DNA from: Branchiostoma floridae
Lineage: Eukaryota > Chordata > Leptocardii > Amphioxiformes > Branchiostomatidae
Reading direction: 5' to 3'
Assembly (NCBI RefSeq): GCF_000003815.2
Contig: NC_049989.1
Location: 8,460,251 to 8,524,250 of the forward strand
DNA length: 64,000 nt
Below the pieces are notes generated by a model. It was not told the DNA's origin, did no database searches, and was given only the letters and a program-made list of their open reading frames with translations. Each line of letters begins with the position of its first letter. The first letter of the stretch is position 1. Made by a program: the position numbers and the translations under genes. Shown one piece after another: positions 14,317 to 40,300 of this stretch.

Positions 14317-15347
14317 CGTTGGGTGTGAAAATATTGATACAAAGTCTTTGTAAATCGACCGCCGGCGTAGCCGCCTCCAACAAACGGGGGAGGGGGGTGG
14401 GTACAGCGACTATTTTCTAACTTTAAACCTCCTGTAAACAGTGTCTGACTACAATTACTACGATCTGGTACAAACAGTCAAACTTTGAGTATAACATTAT
14501 CAAACCTTGAGGTGAAATAACCATCGAAACTTAACTGTATCGAACATTTCACAACATTTAGGCGCCATGATCGAGCTTGGTGTTACCCAGCGACAGTTAG
14601 ACTAGCTCATTGGGGGAAAGGGGGTATGTATTGAAGAGAACAAACAAAATGCTCAAATTATTAATTAATAATCGTAATATAGGGCTATTGAAACATTATT
14701 TTAAAATGATCGTTATGCTTTTTAAACAGGGATGTCTTTTGTTTNNNNNNNNNNNNNNNNNNNNNNNNNNNNNNNNNNNNNNNNNNNNNNNNNNNNNNNN
14801 NNNNNNNNNNNNNNNNNNNNNNNNNNNNNNNNNNNNNNNNNNNNNNNNNNNNNNNNNNNNNNNNNNNNNNNNNNNNNNNNNNNNNNNNNNNNNNNNNNNN
14901 NNNNNNNNNNNNNNNNNNNNNNNNNNNNNNNNNNNNNNNNNNNNNNATATTCACATCCAGAGCACGTTATAGAGTAATCGTTGATTTTATTTGTGTGTTT
15001 TATTTGGAAAAGTTTGGTGGACCGTGGATGGGCGTGGCCATTCATTGTTGGACTTGGCCTGGCCACTTGGGCAAAGTTCACGTAACAGTTTTGTCATCTT
15101 AAACTTCATGATTATATTCATATTTAGATATAGTGTCAGTGTGTATGTGAGTGCATGTGTGGATGTATGTATGTAAGTGTGTTTGTGTGTACTGTGTTCA
15201 TACATGCATGCGTGTCACATATGCATAGGTGCAAATAATTACAACTGTTCATGACTGTACATTGCAAAATTTCAGATCCTTCAATCGCTACATCCCAGTG
15301 CCATAGGAATGTGGTAAGATAACTTTGCCATATATCAAACAACAAAT
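14317..15347. promoter_or_regulatory. Divergent IQCB1/HDAC6-like intergenic region with assembly gap
   Basis: The IQCB1 start codon (14316, minus) and the HDAC6-like start codon (15348, plus) face away from each other with about 1.03 kb between them, so the region must hold both promoters. The unknown bases at 14745-14946 hide part of it. A G-rich tract (about 14386-14400) lies near the IQCB1 side and a (TG)n-like tract at 15135-15200. No TATA box was identified. Confidence 0.55.
14745..14946. other. Assembly gap (N)
   Basis: 202 unknown bases; any frame across them is meaningless. Confidence 1.
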
Positions 15348-18300
15348 ATGGAAGGGGCTGTACAACAACCACCAGATAGTGTACAACCCCTGGACAGAGA
15401 TGTGCAACCACCATTAGATGTACAACCCCTGAGCAGTGATGTGCAACCACCACCAGATACTGTACAACCCCTGGGCAAAGATGTGCAACCACTGCCAGAT
15501 AGTTTACAACCCCTGAGCAGAGATGTGCAACCACCAACAGATAGTGTACAACCTCAGTCACCACCCAAAGATGGAGAAACATCATCAGGAGAACATGGGA
15601 CATCCTCCAATGTGCTTTCCTTTGACAGAACTGGAAATCTAAACCAACCAACTAGTACAGTAGACATTCCAGAACTGGACTACACTTCTCAGGGAGAAAT
15701 TGCAGCGATTTCCACACATGTGACAGTGCCAACTGCTGGTGCGCAACTTGTCTCAAGGGGCAATGACAACCAAGGTGATAAACCAGCAAGCATGGAGAAT
15801 GCAGAACAAATCACATTTCCAGCATCGGACAATCAACCAACCACAGAAGGCTTTGACAGCACAACAGAAGCAAGCAGTATTTCTCCGTCTGTCCCTGAAA
15901 ACATTCCTCGCCATCCCACAATTCCACCTGCAGCTGAAGGTATTGTTGATGTCGTCACACCAAACCAGACGAAAGATGACAGTTCACCAGAGGACAAGAA
16001 TAGCGAGCAGGGTAAGGGGACAGGATCAGGCAAGAAAAAAGGAAGAGGTTCCAAAAAGAAGAATGTCACTCCCACCGGGGTGGGGAGGGGAAACACTCAG
16101 TCACTTCAAGAAGCAAAGAAGAAGGGAAGAAAAGCAAGAAAGGCTGAAAAAGAGCTGGACCTCCTAGATTTGAGTGGACTGAGCCTGGAGGAAAGGCCTG
16201 TACCCAAAGGGACGGGGGTGGTGTTTGATGAGAGAATGGCAGATTACCACTGTCTGTGGGAGGACCTGAGCGACTGTAAGGCAGAACGGCCAGCAAGGTT
16301 CACTGAGACGCTGACATTACTGCGACAGAGAGGCTTGCTGGACAGGTAATGAACAACTTTTTATGCTTTGCCTATCTCTTCTTTTTCTGTATAGATACCG
16401 ATAGTATTGTACATATAGCTGGTATAGTCACCCTTTTAAGTACACATATGAAAGCCCCAGAAGTGCTGCAACTTGCAGTGCAAGGATATTTTTGAGAGCT
16501 GAACAGTTCAATACATGTACACATTTCTTGACAAAATGGGTTGTATTTTTGCAACAATCATGTAATTGTTGACTATACTAGTACTATTTTGGGTATCTGT
16601 AGTTTCTTCCATGAAAAAATACCACTGAATATATTAGTTATGATTGATAACATCTTGTCCTGCAGATGTGTCACCATCCCCTCCCGCCCTGCCACTAGAG
16701 AAGAGGTCCTCAGTATTCACTCTGAGGGTCTCCTGGGGAAACTGGAGAGCAGTGTTACCATGACAACAGACCAGCTAAGACAGCTCTCAGGTACCCAGCA
16801 TCTATCACTGTAAAACCCTGAGGGAGCCATCCTGATATGTCATGTTTTTTCTTTGGATGTTTAATTTTGAAAAAGGAAGTTTTCTTGACATTTTTGTTCT
16901 GATGTTAACATTTCATTAGAAATTATATATCATTTCAAAGGGCAATAAACAAGCTTTCTAATGAGTTAAGACACAATCATATTAAAAAAGCAGACATTTG
17001 AGAGAGCAAAATGGGGCACTTTTAAAATTTTCACTCACATAGTAAGCCCCAGCTTTTCTCTCCCAAATAATAATTACAACATGTGGGTATCATGGTTTTT
17101 TTATTTTGATTTGATCAATTTGGCTGTAAAGAGAAAAAAAAGCCAGGGCTACCCAACTAGCCGAAGGCTATCATCAAAGGCTAGCTTAAGTGTAATAGAT
17201 AAGCTTTCAAGTGATGTACAATACAGTATAATAGAAAAAGTAGCAATGGAGATATGATTGCCTAAACTTGGGCTAATGGGCTTTAAAGTTTAAAACTTTT
17301 TTGGAGGGGAGAGGTTAGATTTTGAACTGTCATGTTTATATTTTGAAGTAAACTGTCTTGTATGCCCTCTTGCAGAGACTTTTGAAGACATAGCCATCCA
17401 CCCCAAGTCTCTTGAATGTGCTCGTCTGTCTGCTGGTTGCACCCTCCAACTTATGGACCAAGTCCTCACCGGGAACGTACGCAACGGAATGGCCGTCGTA
17501 CGCCCTCCCGGTCATCACGCCGACCGAGACCAATCCTGTGGCTACTGCCTCTTCAACAACATCGCCATCGCAGCCAGACAAGCGTTGACAAAGTACAGTT
17601 TGGAAAGGGTGCTGATAGTCGACTGGGATGTCCACTTTGGGAACGGAACCCAAGACCTTTTCTACGATGATCCGAGGGTCCTCTTCTTCTCCATCCACCG
17701 ATACGAGCACATGGAGTACTGGCCACACATGGAGAGAGCCAACTACAGCTTTGTCGGGAGGGGGGCTGGAAAAGGCTATAACGTGAATGTGCCATGGAAT
17801 AAGATAGGGCTGGGAGACCCAGACTATATGGCTGCATTTCAACAGGTATGCATGAAACCTTGGTACATGTATAGACTGAATGATAGTAGCAGTAGTAGTA
17901 GTTGTAGTAGTAATAGTAGTAGTATGTACAATAGTAGTAGTAGTAGTAGTGTGTAGTAGGCAAATTTATTTTTGCTGCGATGAGTTGCTTGCTACATAAA
18001 ACTTTAGCATGTAATTTCAGATGCATCAGATTGCTTTTGATCAATAACAACATTATTTTAACTATGTCAAAAATCAATGCTTCAATTCATGTAAAATGCT
18101 TCAATACACTTGCCTGTGTTCCCTGTAGGTTCTTATGCCGATGGCGTATGAGTTTGATCCGCAGCTTGTGTTGGTTTCTGCTGGGTTTGACTCAGCAGTG
18201 GGAGACCGTATGGGAAAGATGGTCACGTCTCCTGTCTGCTATGCTCATTTACTTCACATGCTAACAGGTAGTTTTAACCTAAACTCAGAACAACATCAAT

Positions 18301-21300
18301 ACTGAAACAGCCACAAAAATGACACTAGCATTTGATGTCTGTTGGGAAAAAAAGTTGCATTTTCTTCTTCTGAAACCTGAAATTTATTTATTAGTTTCAT
18401 TCTTACATTTGTTTTCTGTAAAACAAAAAAATCTTCAGTAGCAAAAGACAACATAGCAGCATTGTTGGGTTGTGACGTCTCTACCCAAATGTTAGTTTGG
18501 AATTCTTGTGGCTCATTTCAGGCTTCTGTGGCTCATTTTCGCTTCTTCATGAGTGTTGCTTGTACATGTGTCTAGGTCCTCATGCCCATGGCGTATGAGT
18601 TTGACCCCCAGTTGGTTCTGGTATCAGCTGGTTTTGACTCAGCTGCCGGGGATCCCAAGGGAGAAATGGACACGACCCCATCAGCTTATGCACACCTCCT
18701 ACACATGCTGAAAGGTACTGCAGCATGGTTAGGTCTAGGAGAAAAAATGTTTAGTTGTCTGTTTCCTGACCTTCCCTAGAAAAACCAATAGCTACAAAGT
18801 CGGCCCCAGTCTTTTTTTGGTAGGCAGTGGAGTCAGATAGTTTCCAGTTTTGATTTTTATTCAGCCTGCTTCCTATTCATGGCAAAAGTTCTTGTCATAT
18901 ATCTAATGAAGGATAGATGCATCTAGAAATTTATAGCCAAATATTGGGACAAAATTGAAGTTCGACATCGAAAAGTTTGTTAGTATCCTCTGTCTATGGA
19001 AACTGTTATGAGACCAAGTGTACTGATGGCAAAAAAACTATGTAACTGTTATTCCTCTTTTGACTCATAATCTGTCTTCTTTTTTGAATTTGAATTTTTA
19101 TGTGTGTTTTGTTTATACATTCGAAAAGCAAACGCAGAGTCCTATTGTTTTTTCAGGTCTCGCTGAAGGAAAAGTTTGTGCCATTATGGAGGGAGGGTAC
19201 AACATACAGACATTGTCCGAGTGTGTCGCCATGTGTGTGGAAACTCTGTTGGGAGACCCCTGTCCGCCCCTCCCCCCGCTACGGCCTGATCCCAGCTCCG
19301 TGGAGACCATACGGAACGTTCTCGGAGTTCATCGTAACAACTGGAAGTGCTTTCAGTACCCAGTAATAAGCTTTAATCCTGCAGAATTTCTTTTATGACT
19401 TTTGCATTAGGATTGATGAATGATCTTTGTAGGAACTCATAAGACTAGGTTGAATTTGAGATTATCATATCAACTTATTTCATTGCCATCTAGGTTTCAA
19501 CAGAAACCAGCGAGGAAGATCAGCATGTGCAACAAAACTCCGAAGACAAGTCCCTCTGGAGATCCGTTGGAAGGGGTATGTTTACATCAAAATCTTTTAC
19601 TATGTCTCAAATAACCCTAAGACCATAGCAAGTAAATTTTATGAATGACGTCCTCTGCAGAATTAAAAAATGATGAGATTGGGTAAAAAAAAAACATTGC
19701 TAGATTTCCAAAATAGACATCATAGTATAGTCATGGCTACCTTGCTAGTGCCACTTCTAGTATGGCACTAGGCTACAGCACAACATGTTTTCCCATTTTT
19801 GTACTTTATTGTTATGCGGACCATCTCTCAGAAGAAGAAAAAAATTCCTGTTTTTTTTTCTGAAATCGGATAAGATTTATTAATAAGTGTGTGGATGTCA
19901 TCTATGAAATTTGGTTGTTCCGGCCTAACACAAAATATGATTAGTACTAATATCTCTGTTATTTTTTTCATGAGTTGTTTAGTATTAGTCATTACCTTTT
20001 GAAATAATATCATATAGTCCTTATCCTTCGACAATAAACAAGTAACAATAAACAATCCTTCAGTACATGATTGTTGCCCCGTTGGATCAGGTACCTGTAC
20101 ATTAGGGCGTGAGGTGGGGCTGGTACATGATGAAGCCATGATGAACCATGATTGTTGCTCTGTTTGTATCAGGTACCTGTACATTAGGGCGTGAGGTGGG
20201 GCTGGTACATGATGAAGCCATGATGAACCATGATTGTTGCTCTGTTTGTATCAGGTACCTGTACATCAGGGCGTGAGGTGGGGCTGGTACATGATGAAGC
20301 CATGATGAACCATGATTGTTGCTCTGTTTGTATCAGGTACCTGTACATCAGGGCGTGAGGTGGCGCTGGTACATGATGAACCATGATTGTTCCCCTGTTT
20401 GTATCAGGTACCTGTACATCAGGGCGTGAGGTGGGGCTGGTACATGATGAAGCCATGATGAACCATGATTGTTGCCCTGTTTGTATCAGGTACCTGTACA
20501 TCAGGGCGTGAGGTGGGGCTGGTACATGATGAAGCCATGATGAACCATGATTGTTGCCCTGTTTGTATCAGGTACCTGTACATCAGGACGTGAGGTGGGG
20601 CTGGTACATGATGAACCATGATTGTTCCCCTGTTTGTATCAGGTACCTGTACATCAGGACGTGAGGTGGGGCTGGTACATGATGAGGCCATGATGAACCA
20701 TGTCAACATCTGGATGCCCGGCCACCCGGAACAACCGTACAGGATCCGCAGGATCATGCAGGCACTGGACAGGCACAGGCTGCAGGACAGGTCAGACTAA
20801 ACGTTCCTGTTGTAAAAACTTAGGAAAATGCATTCCACTCTTTATCTAGATATATTCCATTCTCATACTGATAGTTTTATTCAGTCCCATGGACAGGTGT
20901 TCCACTCAATACTGTGGACAGTACTGAGATGTTCCATTTCAGTACCATGGACAAGTGTTTCAATTCAGTACCATAGGCAGGTGGTCTGTTTCTCTACCAT
21001 AGACAGTTGTTCCATTTCAGTACCTTGGACAGATGTTCCATTTCAGTACCATGGACAGATGTTCCATTTCAGTACCATGGACAGGTGCTCCATTTCAGTA
21101 CCATGGAAAGGTGTTCCATTTCAGTATGATAGACAGTTGTTCCATCTCAGTACCATGGAAAGGTGTTCCATTTCAGTACCATGGACAGGTGCTCCATTTC
21201 AGTACCATGGACAGATGTTCCATTTCAGTACCATGGACAGGTATTCCATTTCAGTACCATGGACAGGTATTCCATTGCAGTGCCATGGACAGGTGTTCCA

Positions 21301-24300
21301 TCTCAGTACCGTGGACAGGTGTTCCATCTCAGTACCATGGACAGGTGCTCCATTTCAGTACCATGGAAGGGTGTTCCACTTCAGTATAATAGACAGGTGT
21401 TTCAATTCAGTACCATGGACAGGTGTTCTGTTTCAGTAACATGGACAGGTTTTCTGTTTCAGTACCATGGGCAGGTGTTCCATTTCAGTACCATGGAAAG
21501 GTGTTCCATTTCAGTACCATGGAATGGTGTTCCATTTCAGTATCATAGACAGATGTTGACTTTCAGTACCATGGACAGGTGTTCCATTTCAGCACCACGG
21601 ACAGGTGTTCTAATTCTGACCCTTCTGTACCAGGTGTGTTAAGTTAGAGTCGAGACTGGCTACAGAAGAGGAGCTGTTGTACCTGCACACAGCTGAACAC
21701 CTGCAGCTGATGCAGGAGACAGCAGAGATGACACCCCGACAGCTGAACAGAACACAGGCAGACTTCAACTCCATCTTCCTATGTAACGACACATACAAGG
21801 TAAGGGAGGGGTGAAGAAAGTCATTTATGGTTGTAGAATGGTATACAGGAAAACAGTGTAGCCAGCTATAGCGCGGGAATTCGTTCATTGAAATTAACTT
21901 TACCTTGATTTGCATACATTCTTAACTTTGTATTTTTTTTGGTCAAAATCTGCAAAAAAGGAGACAAACCTAACCCTCCCCATTTCTTGTGATTGAGGTA
22001 TACTCAAACATAGCAGTTAAGAGGAAATACACAGGTTTTATTTATGCACAGGTCCTAAAGTTGCTTCTTTGACATCTTATATATAATTAGCAACTAAAAT
22101 GTTGTTGTTTGTCCAGTGCTGGTGATTGGAACTGATGTTTCCAACAATTTCATAAGATTCCTAACGAGTATTTTACAATGTAACCAAAAGGACAATTTTC
22201 TCCCTTCACCCCAAGAGTGCCTGTCTAGCGGCAGGGTGTTCCATGAACGCCGTGGAGGCGGTCGCCACCGGGAGCGTACGTAGTGCCGTTGCTGTCGTCC
22301 GTCCGCCGGGTCATCATGCAGAGGTGGACAAACCCTGCGGCTTCTGTATCTTCAACAGTGCCGCCCTGGCAGCTCGCTTCGCTCAGAAGAGACTGGGGGT
22401 AGGGAGGGTACTGATACTGGACTGGGATATTCACCATGGTAACGGTACACAACACATGTTTGTGGACGACCCAACAGTGCTCTACATATCTATACACAGG
22501 TAACCATAACAACAGCACTCAGCTTTTAACCATTTTGTTGGCAATGTCTCTGGGAAGGAGTATACTACTAGTGAAGAAATTGAAACAACTATGAGGTGAA
22601 TTCCTGTGAAAATTGGTTTTGATTTAGGTCAAAGTGACTGAAGAAAAGTTGAATAGATTTTTTTATAAAATTTGAACTATAAGTATAACAACTGTATTTT
22701 GTAAACAAAACCAAGGACAAAATGGCCCTCTAGCAACTGTCTTTGGTAATGCAGCTTAACTCAAGTTTCCATATACATGAAACTTTGTTAAAGAAATTAC
22801 AATATTCATCTCAAGCCTAGATTTTCAATCCTTTTGCTGTAATAATCTAATCTGTTATAATTTTCAATCCTAGTGTCAAGATCTAACTTGAACTGTACAG
22901 AAAATTAATACTCAATATTATGCATTTTTCATCCAGGTATGACAACGGCATGTTTTTCCCTGGGAGCCCCGATGCTGACTGTACCGTGGTGGGGAGCGGA
23001 CCGGGGGAGGGGTTTACTGTCAACGTGCCATGGAGTAGGGGAGGCATGGGGGATCCTGAGTACATGGCTGCATTTCAACAGGTCAGGGGATGGACTAAGT
23101 CTAGGTTCTCCAGCTACTTATTTATCTATCTGTCTTATAAATCGTTTAGAATGTTTTCACTAGTTTGCACACCAATAAAGAAGGCAGGTGCTGGCCACCA
23201 TATTGGTGTCCCTATTTGCATTTCAAGGGACTTAAGCCAAAGCCTACACAACACTTTTGTGTTTAATCAGTAAAATTTAGAGTATTCTTCTAGTACTCTC
23301 TTCTGTGAGCTGTAGGCATTTAGAAGTAGTTATTTGTATCTGATATAAGAGAATACACTTCAGCAGTGATTTACAGAAATATGCAAATATGGACACCGGC
23401 ATAATGAAAGACACAGTAATGATACTCTGTATTAACTGAATCATTGTGATTTTTTACACAGAAATATATGGGTCTGTAGACAATTTCCATGGACTAAGAA
23501 TGATAAGACCTTCAAACTAAAATGTTTGATTCATTATCTACTGTCTTAAATTGTCTTTTTTTTGTGTGTTCCACGTCCAGGTTGTGATGCCCATAGCGTA
23601 CGAGTATTCCCCCGAGCTTGTCATCATCTCAGCAGGATTTGATGCGGCGAGGGGGGACCCCCTAGGCCACTGTGATGTCACCCCCCCAGGCTATGCCCAC
23701 ATGACCCACATGCTGAGCAGCCTGGCAGGGGGGCGGGTCGTACTACTGCTGGAGGGGGGGTACAACCTGTCATCCATCTCCGAGTCCATGTCAGAATGTA
23801 CCAAAATCCTCCTGGGGGACCCCTGCCCTCCATTAGAGTACTCCCCTCCATGTGAAGAGTAAGTACATCCATTATTAGTTCTTCATAGTCTCACACCCCC
23901 CTTTATTTACTTAGTATATTCCAAACTTTCCTTTCTAATGCAGTCAGCTGTTGACTTATGTGCTTTTTTGTTTCAGTACACTTTTAACTTTCCATATACT
24001 TTTCTTTACATATGAATTTTAGTCTTGTGAAAAAGCTATTTCGAGTATTGAATACTTGATTACCTTGGAACTGAATGAGATGTGTAAAATCTTTACAACC
24101 ATATTTCATGTCTCTATGATATAGTGTATGACAACTTTGTTTATAAGTAATATTCATATTTCCTTACAGGGCAGTACAGTCCATGTTGAGCACCCTTCAT
24201 GTTCATCAGAAGTACTGGAGAAGTCTGGCTTTCCAAGGTAAAATTATGCCTCTGTTTTTGAATGATGGTTAATGTGCCATAATGTAGCTGGCTTCCCTTC

Positions 24301-26752
24301 TAGTCCAGTCCCCTTTACTATTTTGATAAGAAATTGTGTTGAAATATGATGCTACACCTTGTGCTTCAATGCCAGGCAGCGTATGGACTGAAACTTTTAA
24401 CATTGTACGAGTGATATTTTGGGGACATTTCTATCTTAACTCAGTTGATGTTGGGACCAAAGATGTCTGCAGTGATGAGGGAGGCGATGAGAGTAGTACC
24501 ACAGGAACAGAGAGAGAACCAGACAGGTATATATGGTTTATATGTGCTTTATCTGCAGATGCATAAGATTGGTTTTGATCAAGAGCAGGAATACCCTTTA
24601 ATGATCAAACTATAATTTTATGATTTTCTATCAAAATCCATGTGTACTGGCACCACACTCTCGTTCAACCATTGTTAAAATAACCTGTCTTAATACAATG
24701 TGCACTTCAGGTTTCTATTTCATATGTGCATGATTTTTTATTGCAGCCACCCCGGTACAAGCTTCGTCATCTGGCAATATCGGAATAATGATTTGCCGTT
24801 ATTTTCCTGTTTCTTAGACCAGCATTGATGGACCTCAATCTTCAGATGGAACAACTCAGCATTACAGGGGAGGAAAAGGACAATCAGAATACTGCAGGGG
24901 GGATAGAAGAGAAGATGCCAACAGATGGGACTGGAAGTGATGCAGCAGCGCCACCTGTCCAAAATCATTTGCAACTGCAGCCCCCAGGTTTGTGGAACTT
25001 TAACACTGTTTGAATGATAAAAGACATGTATCACATATTTCCCATCATATTTGTCATATATTTGTATTTGTTGATGTATACATTGATGAAGTTGGATATC
25101 CAGGTAATAAGATATGCCAAAAGCAGTTACTCAAGCAACTGGATATGGCTTTGGAAACAGTCAGCCTGACTTAATTTTCTTACAATGTTTCGTATGGGAC
25201 ATCTAAGATTGCCTTCATTCATAGTTAGGATATTAAGATACCAGTTTTTTGTCTTTCGCCGCGCTTCCGCGGCGAAAGGCAATCAGACCGATATTAGATT
25301 TCTGTCCGTCTGTCCGTCCGTCCGTCCGTCCGGGTCGACCATGCCATACCGTGCTAGCGAGATATTCTACCCTGTAGATTCGACGGTATGTAACGTTATG
25401 ACATACGTATCGGCCTACCATGAATGTGCTGCTTGGTTTGCGGTCCATGCCATATCGTGCTAGCGAGATATTCTACCCTGCAGATTCGACGGTATGTAAC
25501 GTTATGACATACGTATCGGCCTACCATGAATGTGCTGCTTGGTTTCTGTATGGCTTATAAGCAGGAATTTGCAGAGACGGATGTGAACGGTGAGGATTTC
25601 TTCGTAAGATTGTATACAATTTATAAACTAACATGTTCGCTGTTTGGTTATAATAAAACAGACATTGTAGAGAACAGTTTGACATGTCATTTACTTTGTT
25701 TTATGGAAAATCACCGCTACAAAATCTAGAATTGTGTAAGATGCGTGCGCCGCATCTGACATGGTGTGGGAGGGGGGCGTATTCGGAAATTTCTTACTCT
25801 AAGAAATTTCAGGCTATTTTCGTGTAACAAACTTCTTTCAGCAAAATAGTAGCCCTCGGATGCGTTGAAAATAGAATTACCCACATTTAATTTATAATTT
25901 CGAAAGGGAAGATTCTGACCGAGCTCGACGGAGTGAGTCTGACGCGTGACGTCACGACTCCGTCAAGTAAAAGCATAATTGCGTTACTAAAAGAAACGAA
26001 ACGTTCCATTAAACATACCACGGACCTGTTTTAGTTTAAAATATCTACCTTTCACATGATCTTGCCATTAAAAAAAATATTTCCATTACTGTATATGCCA
26101 TGTTAATATTTTATGTTCAGTTGTTTATGGTGACAATACTTTGTTTGTTCTTGCAGAAATTCAGGACACATCTACTGATAAATTTGATTACTACAGTGCA
26201 CTTTCATAAAACCCTGTTGTACTGTAACAGAGCCGTTCTTAACAGCGAAACAATCCGAATAAAGTTAACATCATTCATGCAGTTGTGTTATTATACAGTT
26301 CAAGTAAAATATACTCTGTGAGAACCACTACCTTACTAAACAGTTATATAACCTAGCACTTGACCAAACTGTGCCAGAGCTGCCAACGTTGCAGACTTGG
26401 CACCCACGCTTGACCAAACTATGCCAAACAATTTTACCTACACAATATAAGTAAGCGAAAGACTAGCTTTTTTCAGAAGCTCTTGTTTCAGATCACTTCA
26501 GTGTCACTGATGAAAACTACTGGATGCTAGTTGAAACGTCAGACCATTTCCCAAATCATGCATATCCAGTTGCTTGAGTAACTGCTTTTTGGCATATTTA
26601 TATTTTATGTAGAGATAAACTTATATAGGTCATACAAATACATGTACAGTTTCTTAAAGTTAGTAAAGCTGTTTTTAATATAAACTGTTTCCCTCACAGA
26701 AAACATGGTTGATCAACCACCAACACCTCCAGTAACAGAGTCATCTATTTGA
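15348..26752 (+). CDS. HDAC6: HDAC6-like tubulin/protein deacetylase with two catalytic domains
   Basis: Exons 15348-16345, 16666-16790, 17376-17845, 18576-18714 (or 18129-18267), 19157-19362, 19494-19575, 20643-20790, 21634-21799, 22216-22499, 22937-23081, 23581-23858, 24170-24237, 24445-24526, 24818-24987, 26700-26752 close to 1137 aa. The N-terminus has six VQPP/VQPL repeats (residues about 5-65), a Lys-rich patch (about 225-270) and an NES-like [14 protein letters not shown] before domain 1 ([14 protein letters not shown]). Domain 1 has RPPGHH (421-422), zinc ligands D459, H461 and D552, and the EGGY tyrosine (Y592); its DVHH motif is DVHF. Domain 2 has [21 protein letters not shown] and EGGYN. 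Two complete domains in tandem are characteristic of HDAC6, a mainly cytoplasmic enzyme acting on tubulin and HSP90. No C-terminal ubiquitin-binding zinc finger was found: the frame ends with a short acidic tail. Confidence 0.92.
17880..17955. repeat. (AGT)n microsatellite next to an HDAC6-like donor
   Basis: An imperfect trinucleotide run begins about 35 bp after the donor of exon 3 (17846). Confidence 0.95.
18129..18267 (+). other. HDAC6: HDAC6-like exon 4a, alternative copy
   Basis: 139 nt between a good acceptor (tag, 18128) and donor (gtagtt, 18268). It encodes [20 protein letters not shown] followed by the zinc-ligand Asp, the same segment as exon 4b, with identical start and end phases (0 and 1). 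After AGFDSA it diverges: [15 protein letters not shown] instead of [15 protein letters not shown]. The frame is open. Confidence 0.85.
18576..18714 (+). other. HDAC6: HDAC6-like exon 4b, canonical copy
   Basis: 139 nt, acceptor tag (18575) and donor gtactg (18715). It carries the family-typical [14 protein letters not shown], so it is taken as the default exon. Because 139 is not a multiple of three, including both 4a and 4b would shift the frame; only one can be used. Confidence 0.9.
20083..20700 (+). repeat. Tandem array of partial HDAC6-like exon 7 copies with their acceptors
   Basis: Seven upstream units of about 82 or 71 bp precede the true exon 7, which forms the eighth. Each unit has GTATCAGGTACCTGTACAT, containing the 3' splice site, followed by exon sequence for [18 protein letters not shown] and then a short linker (ATTGTTGCYCTGTTT). 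The short units lack 11 bp (AGCCATGATGA). Only the last unit continues into the rest of the exon ([18 protein letters not shown]). Minus-strand frames through the array are artefacts. Confidence 0.9.
20887..21610 (+). repeat. 26-bp minisatellite filling HDAC6-like intron 7
   Basis: About 28 units of ATGGACAGGTGTTCCATTTC plus AGTACC, with point variants. Since 26 is not a multiple of three, three frames are open with a 26-residue protein period; this is not coding. Each unit carries a pyrimidine tract plus CAG resembling a 3' splice site. The true acceptor of exon 8 (CTGTACCAG, 21633) lies just beyond the array. Confidence 0.95.
25254..25280. repeat. Perfect GC-rich hairpin inside the transposon-like element
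   Basis: CTTTCGCCGCG, loop CTTC, CGCGGCGAAAG: an 11-bp near-perfect stem with a 4-nt loop in otherwise AT-rich DNA. Confidence 0.8.
25302..25332. repeat. (GTCC)n tetranucleotide tract
   Basis: Runs of CTGTCCGTCCGTCCGTCCGT inside the intronic transposon-like element. Confidence 0.9.
25341..25546. repeat. Two tandem 106-bp units
   Basis: ATGCCATAYCGTGCTAGCGA at 25341 and 25447 begin two nearly identical units that share CGACGGTATGTAACGTTATG and CGGCCTACCATGAATGTGCT. Confidence 0.9.
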
Positions 26753-28490
26753 GAAGTAGCTGTCAATTTGCAAGCAACAGATCCAAGAATGCAGCCCCAA
26801 ATAAGGACAGTGCAAATTTAGAGCTAAGTTTACAATTGCAGGTGATGAAAATACCTCATCAAGCCAGATACCTTCCTTTGAAATTATGGATTTTTATGAA
26901 GGAATATGATATAGAAATGTCTCAATGTGTGCAAATGACAATTGTAGCCATATGTTAGATAGATATGTTTGAGATTTCTATGTAGCTGTGATCTATATAT
27001 GATTAAGTATGACATTTGTGATTTATTTAATCATTGAACATTCAATTTTGAATTTAATATGTAGAAGATCCACCGTTAGTTGATGTACATAACCTGTGCA
27101 AGTAATTGTGCCATCATTTATCTGTCCTGATGGGTACGGACAATGCTGTGATTGCCACTGTGCCATCAGTCTATATATGAAACAAGTCAAAACTTTTCTT
27201 ACAGTCACTAGCAGATGATATGTGCATATAGCCAGACAGATCCCTGTATACCAAAACTGTGTGCAAGACCAAGGAGCTTTTATCATCTTCTTGGTACGAC
27301 TATATATTGGTCTCAGTACTTTTGGGCATCAGACAACTCAGCTGTATAGCCTCACAATATACATTATGTATGTATCAGCCGTCTTGTGTTCAAAACATTA
27401 TGACGACAAAGCAATAGCTGGTAAATTTCATCTTCATACTGTGTTACATAATGGTTAATATCCTTTCTATCTAACATTTGTAAGATTTTGTTAACATTGT
27501 GAAGTACTGTTCAATATACATATAATGTAGCTCAATTGGCTGTTTGATACCATATGCTTTTCTTGTGCAAAACCACATTTTGAGAGTTGTATTGTGAGAA
27601 GTAGAATTCAACATCTAACATTACTATAACAATTATTATCAAATGGGACATTTTTATTATTTAACCAGTAATTATTTTGAGGTGCATACTCTAGACTTTT
27701 CTTTGAAAGTGGATAGTTATGGTTTCCTTTATTGCTGTTATGATTTATTTATATTATGTTTATTGCACCACAATCTACTTTTTCCTGTTTTTGCTTCATC
27801 AATAATAGTATTTTTATAAACATTTTAATTGTGGGACTTATATTTTAATTTGCTGATCGATGATGATCTGCCTAAAATCATAAAGAATACATCACAAAAC
27901 ATTCATACTTAATGGCTGTTTTCTGTTGTGTAATTTTGCTTTTGACTTTAACATAGTTGGTGTCATGCAGATATGTTTTGTAAACCAAAGACGTTATGCA
28001 AACCAAGTAAATAATAATTCCAAGTCCAGTTTTGCAGTATTCCATTAGTGTTGTATCAACATATGCATGTATCCATAGAGATTACTGGCAGTATACACTG
28101 GCTCACCGTTCCATGTTTTTGGAGAGGATGTGACTTCCGAGTATAATTTGCAGAAAAAATCCCTGTAACCTGTACATCTGCAGAGTGTTTGGAGCATACA
28201 AATCAGAAGCAGCTGATCGACTGGAGGTGAGGTAAGCCCTAAGGTTAAGATTATCCAGGTATTCTGGAACATTGTATGTTATATCTTCCCATCAAAGTAA
28301 CGTTACTAAAGCATTCCATATCTATTCCACACTTCGTATCAATCTAAAAATCGGTACCTTCTCTGCGTGTCAAGGGCGCCGCTTAGCGAACTAGAAAAGA
28401 AAGACAGAAGAGTAATACTGCAAATACGATTTTACATTGATTATTTAAGAGCGACCCCTAGCAGTCAGTGAAATAAATGCTGCAGATGGA
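26753..28490. other. 3' flank of the HDAC6-like gene, no other gene seen
   Basis: AT-rich with no coding similarity or strong repeat. The 3' UTR of the HDAC6-like gene must start here, but no clear AATAAA was found close to the stop. I looked here for a zinc-finger UBP exon (spaced Cys/His residues) and did not find one. Confidence 0.4.
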
Positions 28491-28492
28491 CT

Positions 28493-29060
28493 ACCGTATG
28501 ATAGCGTATGGGCAAGTAGGTACACAATGATTGGTCATTTAATTCCACTTGACCAATCAGCACGTAACTTTTTTTGATGTGCAGTACTATATCAACAGAA
28601 TTACCTGAATGTACATCCACATGACCAATCAGCGTCAATACCACCTGTAGACCGCGCAACACAGTTATCATCCGCAGTACAAAGTAGTACGACTAAAATC
28701 TTGAAATTATTCAGCTTGTAGTTGTATAATCACCGCCATTTGTACACTATTTGCTAACACTTCAACATGAAATCCAGTGATGCTTTAAACTTACTATGTG
28801 GTGGTATAATAAGTCAGCTTTTAGATCGTATGTGGAGTGTCATAGTAGCTGCACATTGATTTGTCAGTTTATTCTACTCGACCAATCAGCACGTAACTTT
28901 TTTTGATGTGCAGTGCTATATCAACAGAATTATCTGAATGTACATCCACACGACCAATCAGCGTCAATACCACCTGCAGACCGAACAGCACAGTAATTAT
29001 CCGCGGTACAAAGTAGTGCGGCCGAATCTTGGGAGCTATTCACCTTGTTGTTCATCGAAA
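28493..29060. repeat. Duplicated ~325-bp block, each copy with two CCAAT boxes
   Basis: The segment around GACCAATCAGCACGTAAC and TGACCAATCAGCGTC (28551, 28623) recurs almost identically about 329 bp downstream (28880, 28952). In both copies the two GACCAATCAG motifs are exactly 72 bp apart. The motif matches the NF-Y (CCAAT-box) consensus. No adjacent coding exon was recognised. Confidence 0.75.
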
Positions 29061-31403
29061 GTCTCGCTAATGATCTAGTGGTGTTGGTCCGAGTAGTGAT
29101 GATTCTCGTGGGCTCTGAACAAACATGCTGTGGACAGAAGTTGGACCGGCAATATGGCATGCTATACTGCTCTTGATGCTATGATACTTTTGGTCACTAG
29201 TCGGCGCTTTTGATCCATTTAGTTTATCGTCGCATAAGATGGCTTGTCTACGAAACCATCATAGAATCTATTTTTGTGAGCTGTTGCATGCCACGTAGCA
29301 TAAACTGGTTTTATAAAATAGCATCAAACTGGTCTCTTCTGAAGATATGTAACTGTTAGCTGTAATAAACAATGGATTACAAGTCTGAGTACATGTATAA
29401 TAATGACACCAACAGGTCATGTTTGAATGTATTTACAGAAACGTGCAAGGAGCGATCATAGGAGCGAAACAGGGCCGGTATAGGGTAACACTAACTATAA
29501 GTCTTGTCCTTTCCGTCCAGGGCCCATCAAAACGATTCCCCAGGCGCTTAAGGTTGAATTACATCACAAGTGATATACACCGCTTACAACATTTTGAAAT
29601 AGAATTTGGATCTATTGATAAAAACAGAAAATCGTCACTTTTGTTGTTAAATGTTGAACGTCGACATCGTCTTTCCCAAAATAGAATTGGAAGTTGGATG
29701 TACATGGTATGACTGTATGCTGTAAATTGCCAGCAGACAATTTACAGGACATTTACTCTATCAAACATGTCATTTCCGACATAATATCCCGTATTTCTGT
29801 TGGTGAAATACCTTAGATATTGCCATTGTTAATCTCAAATGATGACAGGGTGAAAGACACAGTCGATTCAGCCGCAAAAATTCAAACCCTTTGCGAGCCT
29901 CCCATCATTTCCCCATTCCCGAAAACAGCGTAAATTGGCAATTTGACGGTCGTTTCAGCCACTTTTCAGGACGCGCCTGAGAGCAGTACTGCAGTTTGGG
30001 CTCTAATGGGGTATGTAGTCCCGACCTTTAAAACATGAAAATAAACAAGAACCTATTCTTAATGCCTGTGAAAACTGTCCTATATGGGTCTAAACATCCT
30101 AACACGCATCTGGAATGACGTTTCAGACACAACCTGACATAAAAAGGATAGTTTTAGGCGCCGCGCGAGGAGCCTCTGTAACACCATGTCCGCCCGTCGA
30201 AGCGCCGCCTACATTCATGTCCAGATTCATGTCTACATCATATACTGGACATTACCAGTTTCCCATTTGGCCTTTTACTCAATTGTCCATCTGCTTACAT
30301 GAGAAAATAGACTATCCTAGAAGTACGTCCGTCGTCACTCAGAAAACATTACGATCTTCATCGCCAACATCTGCTTGAAAAGTTTATCCGATTTGCTTTG
30401 ACACCTTTGGCTTTCTACTTGCTTGCTTGCTTTGTGCCTCTACGATGTACTTATTAAGTTGATAACGTTGTATCTGTGTTTACATATTCGCGAGATGTTG
30501 TATTATTCAGGTCATGCAGCGGTTCCGAACGCCACGACTTCTAAACAAGTTCTCCCGGACGGGACACGTTTTCAGACACAAACTACCTAGTACCTACAGT
30601 AGTACCACCACCTTCCTTTTACCTGTCTTACAAACACACTTGACCTCAAGTTTCCTTCGCCATTTCCTGTCTATGTCTGTTTCTTTCATAAACGGTGCAA
30701 GTTTTATCATCGTACATGTACGTGTAGCCACAGCTGCAACAGTGTGTAAATGAGCCACCCTCGTACCCCTCATGTTGAGTTTCAGTTCAAGTCACTGTTA
30801 TGATGATGTAAAGACCAACTAGACTGGCACACTTAACATGGCGTTCAGGACGCATTGTGTAATTGTGAATATTGTAAGAAAGTGGAATGTCTTTGAATAC
30901 AAAATTGGTTTATTTACATATAAAATACTATAACAGTTATAGAGCAGTAAACAATCTTGTCAACATTAGAACGCTCTTTAAACAGCCACAATTATAAGGC
31001 TTCACATTTGCATGAAGAACAAGAAAACTCCAGGTTACCCTTTTCTGTAGTTTTTCATGTTCTGATCTTTACAAGTACAAGTATCCTTCATGTATGTGGC
31101 GACTATACATGCATTGCATTTCAAAGACCTATATCCAAAGTTACAACAAAGTACAAGAGGAACAACAAAAGAATACAGATATTCAAACTTAAAATATTGG
31201 ATGACAAATCTTTATATGTTTTGTACATAAATGGCTTTATAATGCAAATAAATAAACAAGGTATTAGATCCCATTTATTTTCACTCTAGTTTGGCAACCA
31301 GATGGAATTCAGATTTGTTTCATATTAAACCTAAACCTTTGTGGAGATATGGCAACAAATGATGACCTCTACATGAAATTTACCTTGTATTCTAAATAAT
31401 GGG
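29061..31403. other. Intergenic stretch, nothing recognised
   Basis: Several open frames of 60-110 codons occur on both strands but have no domain similarity, no consistent exon structure and no codon-usage signal that I can see. Confidence 0.4.
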
Positions 31404-34324: not shown

Positions 34325-37300
34325 CTAGCAGGAGAAGACATCGTTGGACCCGTCCCATTTGCAGGGTTTGTCCGGCTGGTCACGCTGCAGCACGTCCTCG
34401 TCATCAAACTTCTTCTGGGAGCGCGAGCAGATGACGACGTCGTCCTCGCCAACTTTGCAGCGCACCTGGCGGAAAGACAAAACACTGCGCGTTAGCTAGA
34501 AAGTTTGCGTCAGTGCCAGTGATGATATCACTCCTGAAGAAGGTCGACGGAAGTGCGACTGAAGCAAGTTTTGGTGTTGTAAGACAGTGGAAAATCTTCA
34601 ATGTGTACTACATCAACACAGATGAGCTTTCATGCTAACACAGATCTTCGTTTTTCAACCACCCCTAGCTGGTTCATGTTTTTAAAACCTCACTATCCTT
34701 CCTAGTTAGAGTCAACCTGATATAAGTACAAAGCCAATCCAATACAAACGGATACGAACCGTACACCAGATTTAACTTTATTATGTGTTTTGCAGCACGT
34801 ATGTGTGATGATATGGATTTGTTATAGATCCATCAGGACTTAGATGATGTGATCTGTATTTTTCTTACACATATTCTATCAGATCCTTACGTCTTGTCTC
34901 ATGCATGGCGTCAATGAAAAGTAGCCTGTAGGCGATTTTGAGCTTCCCGTGGATAAACAAATTTCAATTAGACAAACAAACAAGCGGAATACATTACGTC
35001 AGATACTAAGTAGTCACAAGAAGTAGTCACCTTCTCCTCATAAACTTTGACGGGGAACGGCTCCGACACGTCTGTTTCGCCCTTGGGTCTCTCCACCGCC
35101 CCCTCCACCCACGTGATCTCGGCATCCTGTCCCTCGGGCTCCCCGGCCTCGGGATGCGGCTGGCGCCCTCGGCAGTGGTAGTCCAACATCAGGCCGCTGT
35201 CGTCACAGTCCAGGGAATCCTCGGTCACCGGATCATCAGAGTCGGGACAGAAAACGGCAATCTAGAAACGGAAGACGAGAAGAATTGAATAATTCTTAGA
35301 TCAACTTTTGAGACGCTTGTGTGAAAATACTAGAACCAGAACGGTTAGTAACGGTATCCTTTCTAGTTTTCATGCGGCATATCATAAAAAAGTACTTCAA
35401 TCATATGTGCATTTGTACTGTATCAATTTCAACTGTCCATATGCGTTGAAAAGATTTTTATTACCCTTCAACATACATTTGCAGGACAAACATTATGTCT
35501 GAGTGAGCTGGAGTAAGTTGTAGTCATTTTTGTCGTTTATGACATTGCACTGCAATGAACCTTTTTGCAAAAAGTTTACTTGTAATTATCTCCCTGGAAA
35601 GAAGTTGAATATAAGCTAAGTGAGTCAACAAAACACTATCTCTCTTCTTCTAGTTAGTACGGCCATGTTACTGCAAATGTTAACAGGGAATGCAAAGCCC
35701 TGGCCAAACTTAATTGTACAATGTCCAAGCTGCATTTCGTAAGCTTTAAATGACCCTTGGTACATCGGTAGCCTTCGGACATTGTACTTTGGTCATGAGA
35801 CGAAGCTATACTTACATGACCCAGATATAGTTTATCAACTCATCTCTCCAGCTAAAAATCAACCTAACTTTGGTCCAAAATGAGAGAAATCTAATCCAAC
35901 TTGAGACTAGTCGTAGAAAGAATCACCACACAGGTATATGTATCTTTATACTTTGATTCCGAAACTAGTAGCTGTTCTGTTAGATCCATGATCCGCACAC
36001 ATGTTTACATCATTGGTGGTTAGATAATGTTCATTTGCATAGCTTGTCATGTCTACAAACATCAACTGAATCATCAGGTATGTAGACCGCCCACTGGGAA
36101 ACATACAACCCTTACAAAGCCTGACACACTTTAATCTGACCCGGCAGGTCAGGATAGAACACAGCCATGGCCCTCCTGCCTCATCCTCTGCTCGTAGTTC
36201 TGGCAATACTGGGTTGTAGTACCTGCGGGGGGAGTGCGCCGGATGGTCCGGTCGTTCAGACGTCGCAGGGCCCTGTCATGGGAATCTATGCCGAGGAGGG
36301 GAGAATCTTTTACGGTATCCCCTTTGCAGCTCCTCCAACGGGAAACCTAAGATGGCGCCCGCCCCAGCCTGCTAAACCATGGGGACCTGACACCTATAAT
36401 GCCACCAAACGGAGTCCGATGTGCATCCAGGTTATGTGCGGGCCCGATGATCCGGATTCTATTGCCCAATGTCCCCCTGTCGCGGAAAGGGTAATAAGCG
36501 AGGACTGCCATTACCTCAACGTTTTCGTACCGACCACCGCCAGCCCTGAGTCAAAGAAACCAGTCATCATCTTCATCCATGGGGGGAATTTCTTTGAATT
36601 CTCCGCCATGGGTGTCATGTATGATAGCAGGTTCTTTGCTAACAAGACTGACGCTGTTGTTGTGGCAGCCAACTACCGAATAAGCTCTCTGGGCTTCCTC
36701 CGGGCGGGGACTGGGAAGGACGCCGCCATGGGCAACTACGGCCTCCGCGACCAAGTAGCAGCGCTTCAGTGGGTGCAGGACAACATCGCAGCCTTCGGCG
36801 GAGACGAGAACCAAGTCACACTGTTCGGGGAAAGTGCGGGCGCGTACTCCGTTCTATTCCACCTGGTCAACAAAGGAAGCGACAAGCTGTTCCACAAAGC
36901 TATCGTGGCAAGCGCACCTACAGGCCTTTACTTCAGAAGTCAGCTGGAGGCTATCCTGTTTGGAAACGACTTTGCCGCAGCCCTGAAATGTTCAGTCGGA
37001 GACATGGCATGCATGCGAGCAGCTGACGCCTCCACGGTCAAGGGAGCCCAGTTCTCTATTCGAGAAACGATCGTCAATCCGCTGCACTTAACTGAAGCAT
37101 TTGAACCATGGGGACCAGTAATTGATGGTGACATGATCACCAGGCAAATGGTGGAAAGCTTCTCTACTGGAAACTTTCAGAAGAAGCCTCTCATCATTGG
37201 AACAAACACGGAAGAGGCAATTCTCTTCATACACGAAGCTTTATCATCACCCCATGCAACAAATAGATATCAAGAAGCAATGCTGGCAATCTTTAAGACG

Positions 37301-40300
37301 TCAAGCTTCTCAGTTCTCAGGGAATACCCACCTTCTAATACAGGAGACGAGCGTCCGATCCTGGCAACACTGACCACCCATTTCATATTCTCATGCCCGA
37401 CGCGTAACATTCTGAAGAGCGCTCTGAAGTACGGCCATTCGAACACATGGCTGTATGTCTTTGCTCATCCCCTGTCAGTCCATGCAGTTTGGAGTGACTA
37501 CCCGTACTGCGATGGCCACGTCTGCCATGGCGCCGATCTACCCTTCGCGTTCCAGTCCATTTCGCTGAAAGGTTACAAGTTCACCCCTGAAGAGCAGGTC
37601 CTAGCTGACTCCATTGCGTACTACTATGGAAACTTCGCTCACACAAGCGATCCCAACACTCCTGGCACCCGACACACCGGCCCATCTACCACTGGTCCGG
37701 CTTGGCCTTCTTTTGGATCTACCCAGAACTACACCCACCTGGTCTTCGATGTTCCCAAGAACAGAGTTAGTCAAGGCTACCTACAAGACAAGTGTGACTT
37801 TTGGGACGAGGAGAACCAGTACCCGTAGCAGCCACGCACAGTAAAAATGTAACGAGCCACATTGCCGGTATGGATTATCATCAATGTGAAGTCATGTCCA
37901 CCAACTTACATTTTCTTGGAACTGCCTTGATAGACTTGACAAGGACAAGAATTTGACTTGTGAGTTGACATTTTCCCATATATAACAGTTTACTAGTACT
38001 GTACTGATGGCTATTGTCAAAACGTACTATGTGCTATTTCACAGTTCTGAGTGCGCATGTGCAGGTATAATGCATTGTAGTCAAAAGTCAAAGCTCCTGG
38101 CTTGTACAAACCATTCCTTAGCTACATGCCATAGTTTATCATGACTGAGCATGCGCACTCGTATCTATGAATGGCTAATTCCTGATAGCAAAACACACAG
38201 TGTCCAGATGACAGCGAGTTTTGCGTAGCTCTTGCTGCAAAATACCAATCATTTGCCATTATTTACAAATCTTCTGTACATCTCTGAGTGTCTCTTGTCT
38301 GCAAATGTGCTGATATGTCTCTCAATTCTAAACTAAGCTTAAGCTGTGAACAGCCAAAGAATGTTAATACTGTTTTTATAGAACTAATATTCCAAAACTC
38401 AAAAGTAGCATATTTATATGAATATTACAGAGATGATACTGGTTTCATGGTGTTTGTATGTGTGGCATGAAAATAAATAAACACGTGTAAGAAAAACACG
38501 CAGAATTGTTATCATCCGTGTGTGTACATTAACCGGTGTCACAGCGACACCCCCCCCCCCCCCGCCATATCTCTTTCTCCATGAAACCAAATAACAAGCG
38601 ACCAACCAAGTAACTAACGACTAACGATGATAAATGGATTATCAATGATTAACCAAATAACTAGCGATAAATTCAGTGATCTTTTGGACGTTTTTGAATG
38701 AAATAAATACAATTACTAGTATCAGACATAATCAATTTGCACATACCTCTAGAATGAAACTTGCCAAGTGACCACAATGTGTTGTTTTGTCAATCTGGAT
38801 AAAGTCAAAGACAATCTTACTCTGACCTCATCTTGCGGCCTGACTTATATTAACTATGCATGAATAACGGCCTAGTCTGAAAAATTTAGTCTACGTTTAT
38901 ATATATACTAAATTTAGTATACTTACTGCAGTACCAAGGTCAGTGACCAGGAGGCTAAAATGGACCTTGAACTACATTTTTATGGAGGTAACGCTGGTTC
39001 ATCTTTATCCGAGGGTGACCTATATTCGTTGCTTGTAACGTAAACGTAATGTAAACGCATTTATTTAGGGATATGAAGTCGACGGACGGTGGTTTCAAAT
39101 CGGAACATTTTGAAAATATTGCAAATTTGAAACCACTGTCCGCAGACTTAATACTCCTAAATGTGCTGTTTTCAAAGACAACGGATAAAGATCACCCCAC
39201 GGATAAAGGTGAACTAGCGTTAATGAATAAAAGGTATATCGTCTATCATCCATCATACTAACGGTACGACTGTGAGAAACTGGAGTTTGGTCATCAACGA
39301 CTGACCTGTAGTGGCCTGAACAGGCAGTCCGGCACGTGGCGGTCCAGCACCTTGACCAGGCCGAAGTCCGTGGGCTGGACAGGTGCCCCAGGACAGGTGC
39401 GCACTCCGTCCTCTACGGTACAGTTCCCGGACACCTGCGTGGTCTCCTCCCTGCCGTCTTGTTTCCGGAAGGTGGTGCAGTTGTAGGTTCCCGCCTCCCA
39501 TACACACTTGGTGGACTGGACCTGTCGTTAGAAGTCATCTTATTAAACTGACCCAAATTTAAATTTCTACCAAATAATTTCATTTATCCAAGAAAGCTAT
39601 CGCTCTTACCTGAATTCCTTTTTCTAAATACAGAAGAAGTCAGTTAATTACACAGTGGATAACCGCAGACTTCCGTTAATTGCACGGAATCCCACAAACC
39701 CAAACCAGTGTGGTCCAGCAGTGTTGCACCGCCCTGATAACTGCATTAAAAATATACCGACAAATGGGGTGTGCAATTAAGCGGTTTCTGCAGTAAAATC
39801 ACTATAAGCTTCGACCCCTACACTACAGTCATCTCTTAGAAGATGTTGGGATGGAAAACCTAAACGTTCAATCTGAACGGGAAGCTTTTCTGGCAGTCCA
39901 CGGAACCTCCACATCTCCTCGATTATAGATCATACGAAAGTCGCTGTACTTTTGTCGTGTCAATACAGATTATCATTTATAGCACCAATAGTCTGTGAGG
40001 TTTTCATAATCAATTTACATCATTTCCTGCTTCTGTGATTTCAGCAAATTTCACAGCACGTAATTTCACTGGACCCCGTCTTTGAATACAATAGGCAAAC
40101 GTTATACATCTACCTGTTATAACAGGTTTTATTCCAGTACATAATGCTTCCCCATATATACTTACAGTGACGGTGGAGGTAGCATTGCCAGTACAGTTTG
40201 GCCTCAGGTTGTCCCAGTCATAGCTACAGCCGAACGATCCGGCGCTTGTGTGAACGAAAACACTAGCACCATCAAAGATATCTGTAGTCAGTAGGGAAAA

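Follow-up and report, generated by a model that had tools for sequence, protein, structure and literature searches.

A tandem exon pair that may switch the gatekeeper residue of catalytic domain 1 in an HDAC6-like gene of Branchiostoma floridae

Splicing switches built from pairs of mutually exclusive exons are known, and the closest precedent here is coq-2, whose exons 6a and 6e have been reported as such a pair in C. elegans, helminths, annelids and molluscs (PMC7434440). Here, we describe a putative pair of this kind, exons 4a and 4b, in an HDAC6-like gene on the plus strand of a 64,000-nucleotide (nt) stretch of the Branchiostoma floridae genome (contig NC_049989.1, positions 8,460,251 to 8,524,250; hereafter the window, whose first letter is position 1). 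As described for coq-2, the two exons have the same length (134 nt each), only one enters each mRNA, and the enzyme core near the substrates is remodelled. Two residues beside the substrates differ between the forms, and the forms make different quinones. The coq-2 product is an unrelated enzyme, a polyprenyltransferase, and its splicing and function are backed by RNA sequencing and exon removal, whereas for the HDAC6-like gene we infer both the mutually exclusive splicing and the change in activity of catalytic domain 1 (CD1) from the DNA sequence. Among the literature matches listed (titles and beginnings of abstracts, with subscription papers mostly outside), no exon switch in HDAC6 or another histone deacetylase (HDAC) was found, and such a pair in a histone deacetylase is without report there.

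The other relevant systems are the HDACs in which a gatekeeper residue has been studied. In zebrafish HDAC6 CD1, K330 is reported to make the domain specific for acetyllysine at the carboxy terminus, an anionic substrate, and the gatekeeper of the other human HDACs is Leu or Met, except in HDAC10, which has Glu (PMC5454378). The E274L substitution in zebrafish HDAC10 reduced polyamine activity 20-fold and raised acetyllysine activity approximately 100-fold, turning a polyamine deacetylase into a lysine deacetylase (PMC5454378). A role of the gatekeeper in substrate choice is also supported by a further study (PMC10157890). The Lys of the PKG motif has been given as the cause of the C-terminal preference (PMC11532494), and CD1 has been described as highly specific for C-terminal acetyllysine, with catalytic domain 2 (CD2) being broader (PMC10674519). 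The gatekeeper (Lys330/353 in HDAC6 CD1, Glu274 in HDAC10, Leu or Met elsewhere) corresponds to codon 28 of exons 4a and 4b, the Lys of 4b resembling that of CD1 and the Met of 4a the Leu/Met class. In the published cases, as far as the accessible text of these reports goes, the gatekeeper is fixed per gene or domain, whereas the HDAC6-like gene encodes two versions (PMC5454378, PMC10157890, PMC11532494).

Vertebrate HDAC6, represented by Protein Data Bank (PDB) chains 9k91 and 5g0h, shares with the window gene the tandem catalytic domains, a CD1 with Lys as gatekeeper (as in 4b) and a conserved Trp, and a CD2 with Leu. It differs in having HHG where this CD1 has HFG and in having no duplicated exon. 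Neither a motif scan nor a tblastn search with an approximate human domain (best E 0.78) found a zinc-finger UBP in the window (24237-31000 noted), the exon model ending at 24237; HDAC6-like is therefore the right term for this gene.

We propose, with a probability of roughly 0.6, that mutually exclusive splicing gives CD1 two alternative forms, one directed at C-terminal acetyllysine (with 4b) and one in which the lysine gate is missing (with 4a). The exons concerned are as follows:

17376..17845, plus strand: exon 3, CD1 core; Pfam PF00850 on the spliced segment
18129..18267, plus strand: exon 4a, Met at the gatekeeper position
18210..18212, plus strand: exon 4a codon 28 (ATG, Met), gatekeeper position
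18268..18575, plus strand: intron between 4a and 4b, 308 nt, ordinary GT-AG
18576..18714, plus strand: exon 4b, gatekeeper Lys like that of HDAC6 CD1
18657..18659, plus strand: exon 4b codon 28 (AAG, Lys), gatekeeper position
19157..19362, plus strand: exon 5, common exon with the EGGY motif

Exons 4a and 4b are each 139 nt long, are preceded by AG and followed by GT, and are entered in phase 0 and left in phase 1; their coordinates, lengths and phases and the flanking junctions at 17845 and 19157 agree with the original prediction. That both exons encode the same CD1 segment, as had also been claimed, is borne out by the AGFD motif in each, the Asp of which aligns with the HDAC6 AGFD Asp in PDB chains. 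We take this residue to be the zinc-binding Asp. The two peptides are identical at 38 of 47 residues, counting a glycine completed by exon 5. A tblastn search of 4a against the window recovered 4b (82% identity over 45 amino acids, E 1.1e-21) and the part of CD2 that corresponds to exon 4, which begins at 23581 and carries GDPLG (54% over 46 amino acids). One extra match (E 0.25, 18 amino acids) maps to CD2 in the opposite orientation. No third exon copy was found in the window by tblastn with 4a and 4b at E up to 1.

Either exon alone, joined to the eleven other exons, gives a 3139-nt open frame without a stop through both catalytic domains. Inclusion of both exons brings the first stop at 18596, inside 4b, and skipping of both brings it at 20691, in exon 7, exon 5 being open even in the shifted frame. 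An intact protein therefore needs exactly one copy per mRNA, as had been predicted. The two exons are neighbours, homologous and compatible in length and phase, the arrangement that marks mutually exclusive tandem-duplicated exons.

The difference between the exons is concentrated in one loop. Eight of the nine amino acid changes fall in codons 24-37, directly after the AGFD Asp. In agreement with the original prediction, the 4b loop is family-typical (GDPKG, as in HDAC6 CD1) and the 4a loop departs from it (GDRMG). In PDB alignments, codon 28 is aligned with the Lys of GDPKG in HDAC6 CD1 (9k91 and 5g0h, which we take to be human and zebrafish), with the Leu of GDPLG in HDAC6 CD2 and with the Glu of GDPEG in HDAC10. 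By this alignment codon 28 is the known HDAC gatekeeper position, a point absent from the original prediction. The earlier suggestion of a changed loop next to the active site, perhaps affecting substrate choice, is thus supported and sharpened, as the exon carries the gatekeeper residue itself. From 4b to 4a, Lys is replaced by Met at codon 28 and the preceding Pro by Arg, and the net charge of the loop goes from -2 to +1. An Arg before the gatekeeper is also found in the GDRLG loop of HDAC1 and HDAC2. The common exons supply GHHA, DVH, the Trp of YWPHM, the Tyr of CGYC and EGGY, which are unaffected by the swap. On our reading of the alignment, this Trp and Tyr would correspond to W284 and Y225 of the gatekeeper papers; zebrafish CD1 has Phe at the position of the CGYC Tyr. 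Among solved CD1 chains, 6uo7 has Leu as its gatekeeper. The 4a peptide scores higher against this chain than against 5eef, which has Lys (53.2 and 51.9 bits), and the 4b peptide scores lower (52.0 and 55.3 bits).

Comparison of the two copies indicates that 4a is maintained as coding sequence, as judged from this one genome. Twenty-nine of the 46 codons differ, 20 of them synonymously and nine with an amino acid change. Codons 1-23 contain 12 synonymous differences and no amino acid difference. The non-synonymous divergence (dN, Nei-Gojobori) is 0.019 in codons 1-23, 0.416 in codons 24-37 and 0.102 in codons 38-46; the first value is above zero because of a multi-step leucine codon, with no residue differing. 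Synonymous differences reach 0.74-0.87 per site across the blocks, near saturation. None of the nine changed residues lies in the first half of the exon (P = 7e-4). In a neutral simulation, 4b was held to its protein and 4a was left free, with 3000 runs each at 20, 30, 40, 60 and 80 mutations per copy. Codons 1-23 were kept unchanged in 0 of 3000 runs at every one of the five loads, a stop was introduced into the copy in 43-75% of runs, and the mean number of synonymous codon differences was 6.6-8.4, compared with 20 observed. The direct repeat between the copies found in an ungapped search reaches 3 nt beyond the exon on either side, and this search listed no intron repeat at the same spacing. 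The near-saturated synonymous sites and the lack of similarity found in the introns point to an old duplication rather than to alleles.

In the explanation that we favour, the gene encodes a two-domain HDAC6-like deacetylase in which one CD1 exon was duplicated in tandem long ago. Both copies have been kept as protein sequence, with the first 23 residues, including the Asp, in common and a different loop behind them. CD1 with 4b has the lysine gatekeeper of vertebrate HDAC6 CD1 and would favour C-terminal acetyllysine. The replacement of Lys by Met and of Pro by Arg, with the accompanying charge shift, suggests that CD1 with 4a should no longer require the acetyllysine to be followed by a free carboxylate; with this neutral gate, the C-terminal preference would be lost and other, probably internal, acetyllysines accepted. 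The choice of exon would probably be set by splicing regulators according to tissue or stage, and products with both exons would presumably be removed by nonsense-mediated decay. In its fuller form, this proposal holds that the deacetylase picks its substrate class by splicing, 4b serving C-terminal acetyllysine and 4a, whose GDRMG loop resembles class I through its Met and Arg, serving internal acetyllysine, so that one gene would make two CD1 enzymes. We regard this fuller form as tentative and rather doubtful.

Several observations count against the proposed switch. The gatekeeper has been termed necessary and not sufficient (PMC5454378), and the Trp that narrows CD1 would stay in both forms. 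Exon 4a also brings in an Arg and a further Lys, with which CD1 may still prefer acidic substrates. Human HDAC6 with an inactivated CD2 was reported to show no activity on the tested peptides (PMC10157890); being silent on those peptides without an active CD2, CD1 may act poorly on internal acetyllysine with either gatekeeper. In exon 3 (17376-17845), CD1 of the window gene reads DWDVHFGNG, where Phe takes the place of the second His of HHG; its CD2 keeps HHG, as do both HDAC6 domains in the PDB alignments, and owing to HFG this CD1 may be weak with either exon. When the whole CD1 with 4a is used as the query, the chains with Leu do not stand out: 6wyo, called Lys-type from its exon-peptide scores, has 355.9 bits, the Leu chains have 355.6 (6uo7) and 355.4, and 5eef has 354.2. 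In the simulation, nine or fewer amino acid changes over the whole exon occurred in 6.6% of neutral runs at 20 mutations per copy, in 0.03% at 30 and in none at 40-80. At the lowest load, neutrality is thus rejected by the test on codons 1-23 and not by the whole-exon test; the higher loads reject it by both.

The splice sites count on both sides and the introns against the switch. Sites were scored with an approximate consensus matrix, and the 12 acceptors and 13 donors of the gene were compared. In favour, both sites of 4a are stronger than those of 4b (acceptor 9.12 vs. 6.34, donor 5.74 vs. 3.90), and decoys in the gene reach the 4a scores at 4 of 596 AG and 22 of 582 GT dinucleotides and the 4b scores at 34 of 596 and 58 of 582, respectively. 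Against it, the 4a sites are rather weak for this gene, ranking fourth lowest among acceptors and among donors, and the 4b sites rank second lowest in both. No element that would enforce exclusion was found in the introns around 4a and 4b. For intron pairing, 31, 46 and 50 of 100 shuffles reached energies at least as good as those observed, and short inverted repeats were at shuffle level (4.5 observed, mean 3.1; as many or more in 17 of 60 shuffles). The 308-nt gap and the GT-AG ends of all sites argue against a steric limit and a U2/U12 mix, respectively, as the cause of exclusion.

A docking/selector RNA structure was considered for a 12-nt inverted repeat joining 18101-18112, just upstream of the 4a acceptor, to 19015-19026. 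It was set aside, with repeat frequency and pairing at shuffle level.

Four other explanations were weighed, in falling order of likelihood. The mutually exclusive exons may be real and 4a may make CD1 catalytically silent or binding-only, an on/off switch with no change of substrate. The change of the Pro of GDP to Arg, the inverted loop charge and the unusual HFG motif that CD1 already has would fit this. However, the AGFD Asp, GHHA, DVH and EGGY are intact with 4a, the GDR-hydrophobic-G pattern is found in HDAC1 and HDAC2 (GDRLG), so the Arg fits the fold, and the PF00850 (Hist_deacetyl) score of CD1 drops only from 276.7 bits with 4b to 271.2 bits with 4a. We consider a silent 4a form unlikely. 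There is a small chance that 4a is a poison-type exon, the inclusion of which beside 4b lowers the protein level via nonsense-mediated decay, its peptide being irrelevant. The double-inclusion stop at 18596 precedes many later introns and the splice sites of 4a are stronger than those of 4b, but a pure poison exon needs no conservation such as that of the first 23 residues of 4a, which equal those of 4b despite near-saturated synonymous sites.

That conservation bears equally on the possibility of a dead or dying duplicate, which the departure of the 4a loop from the family-typical form might suggest. Neutral drift is rejected by the simulation on codons 1-23, and 4a has an open frame and usable splice sites. 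The frame logic and the selection on the 4a protein together make the dead exon copy, named in the original prediction as the alternative, improbable, and a shade more so than a poison exon; a very recent death of 4a after long function may have occurred. An assembly artefact, with two alleles of one exon set in tandem, would be the least probable of all. The window does contain an N run (14745-14946), so the assembly is not gap-free, but synonymous divergence near saturation and introns in which no similarity was found do not fit alleles. A mutually exclusive pair that swaps the CD1 gatekeeper is the reading we prefer.

The HDAC6-like gene extends from approximately 15318 to at least 24237, and its product carries two histone-deacetylase domains behind an N-terminal extension. 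Its other exons are:

15318..16345, plus strand: exon 1 reading frame, N-terminal extension with VQPL repeats; open frame, donor CAG/GTAATG
16666..16790, plus strand: exon 2, beginning of CD1
19494-19575, plus strand: exon 6, linker toward CD2
20643-20790, plus strand: exon 7, linker toward CD2
21634..24237, plus strand: exons 8-12, CD2; PF00850 matches

The first ATG of exon 1 is codon 11 of the reading frame, and the start of this exon is not fixed. Like HDAC6 (class IIb), the gene has tandem catalytic domains, with one open frame across CD1 and CD2 and PF00850 in each. The two CD2 pieces score 138.7 and 81.6 bits, and, like both CD1 forms, exceed the curated cutoff of 27.9 bits. The class IIb gatekeeper pattern, Lys in CD1 and Leu in CD2, is found with 4b (GDPKG) and CD2 (GDPLG) and not with 4a (GDRMG). 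Assignment to the class I HDACs (HDAC1/2) was rejected: GDRMG of 4a resembles GDRLG, yet the best domain matches are HDAC6 chains.

Several repeats lie in or between these exons. In exon 1, tandem 42-nt repeats (15359-15553) encode the VQPL-type repeats of the N-terminal extension. Approximately eight tandem copies of an 82-nt unit, which includes the exon 7 3' splice site and the start of exon 7, occupy 20066-20702. In this array, ATCAG/GTACCTGTACAT occurs eight times and the longer TTTGTATCAG form seven times, the last of each being the true start of exon 7. There are thus up to seven decoy acceptors upstream of exon 7. The intron before exon 8 contains 26 copies of a 26-nt unit, TGTTCCATTTCAGTACCATGGACAGG (20930-21610). 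Elsewhere in the window, a long single frame of 556 amino acids (36158-37828) is carboxylesterase-like by eye.

To our knowledge, CD1 is the less understood of the two HDAC6 domains, and its natural substrates are unclear. If the proposed switch is true, a natural gatekeeper-swapping exon pair would be a ready-made test of the role of this residue in an animal, and the tissues and stages in which each form is made would give leads to the substrates of CD1. Deacetylases would then join the enzymes known to change substrate through exon choice.

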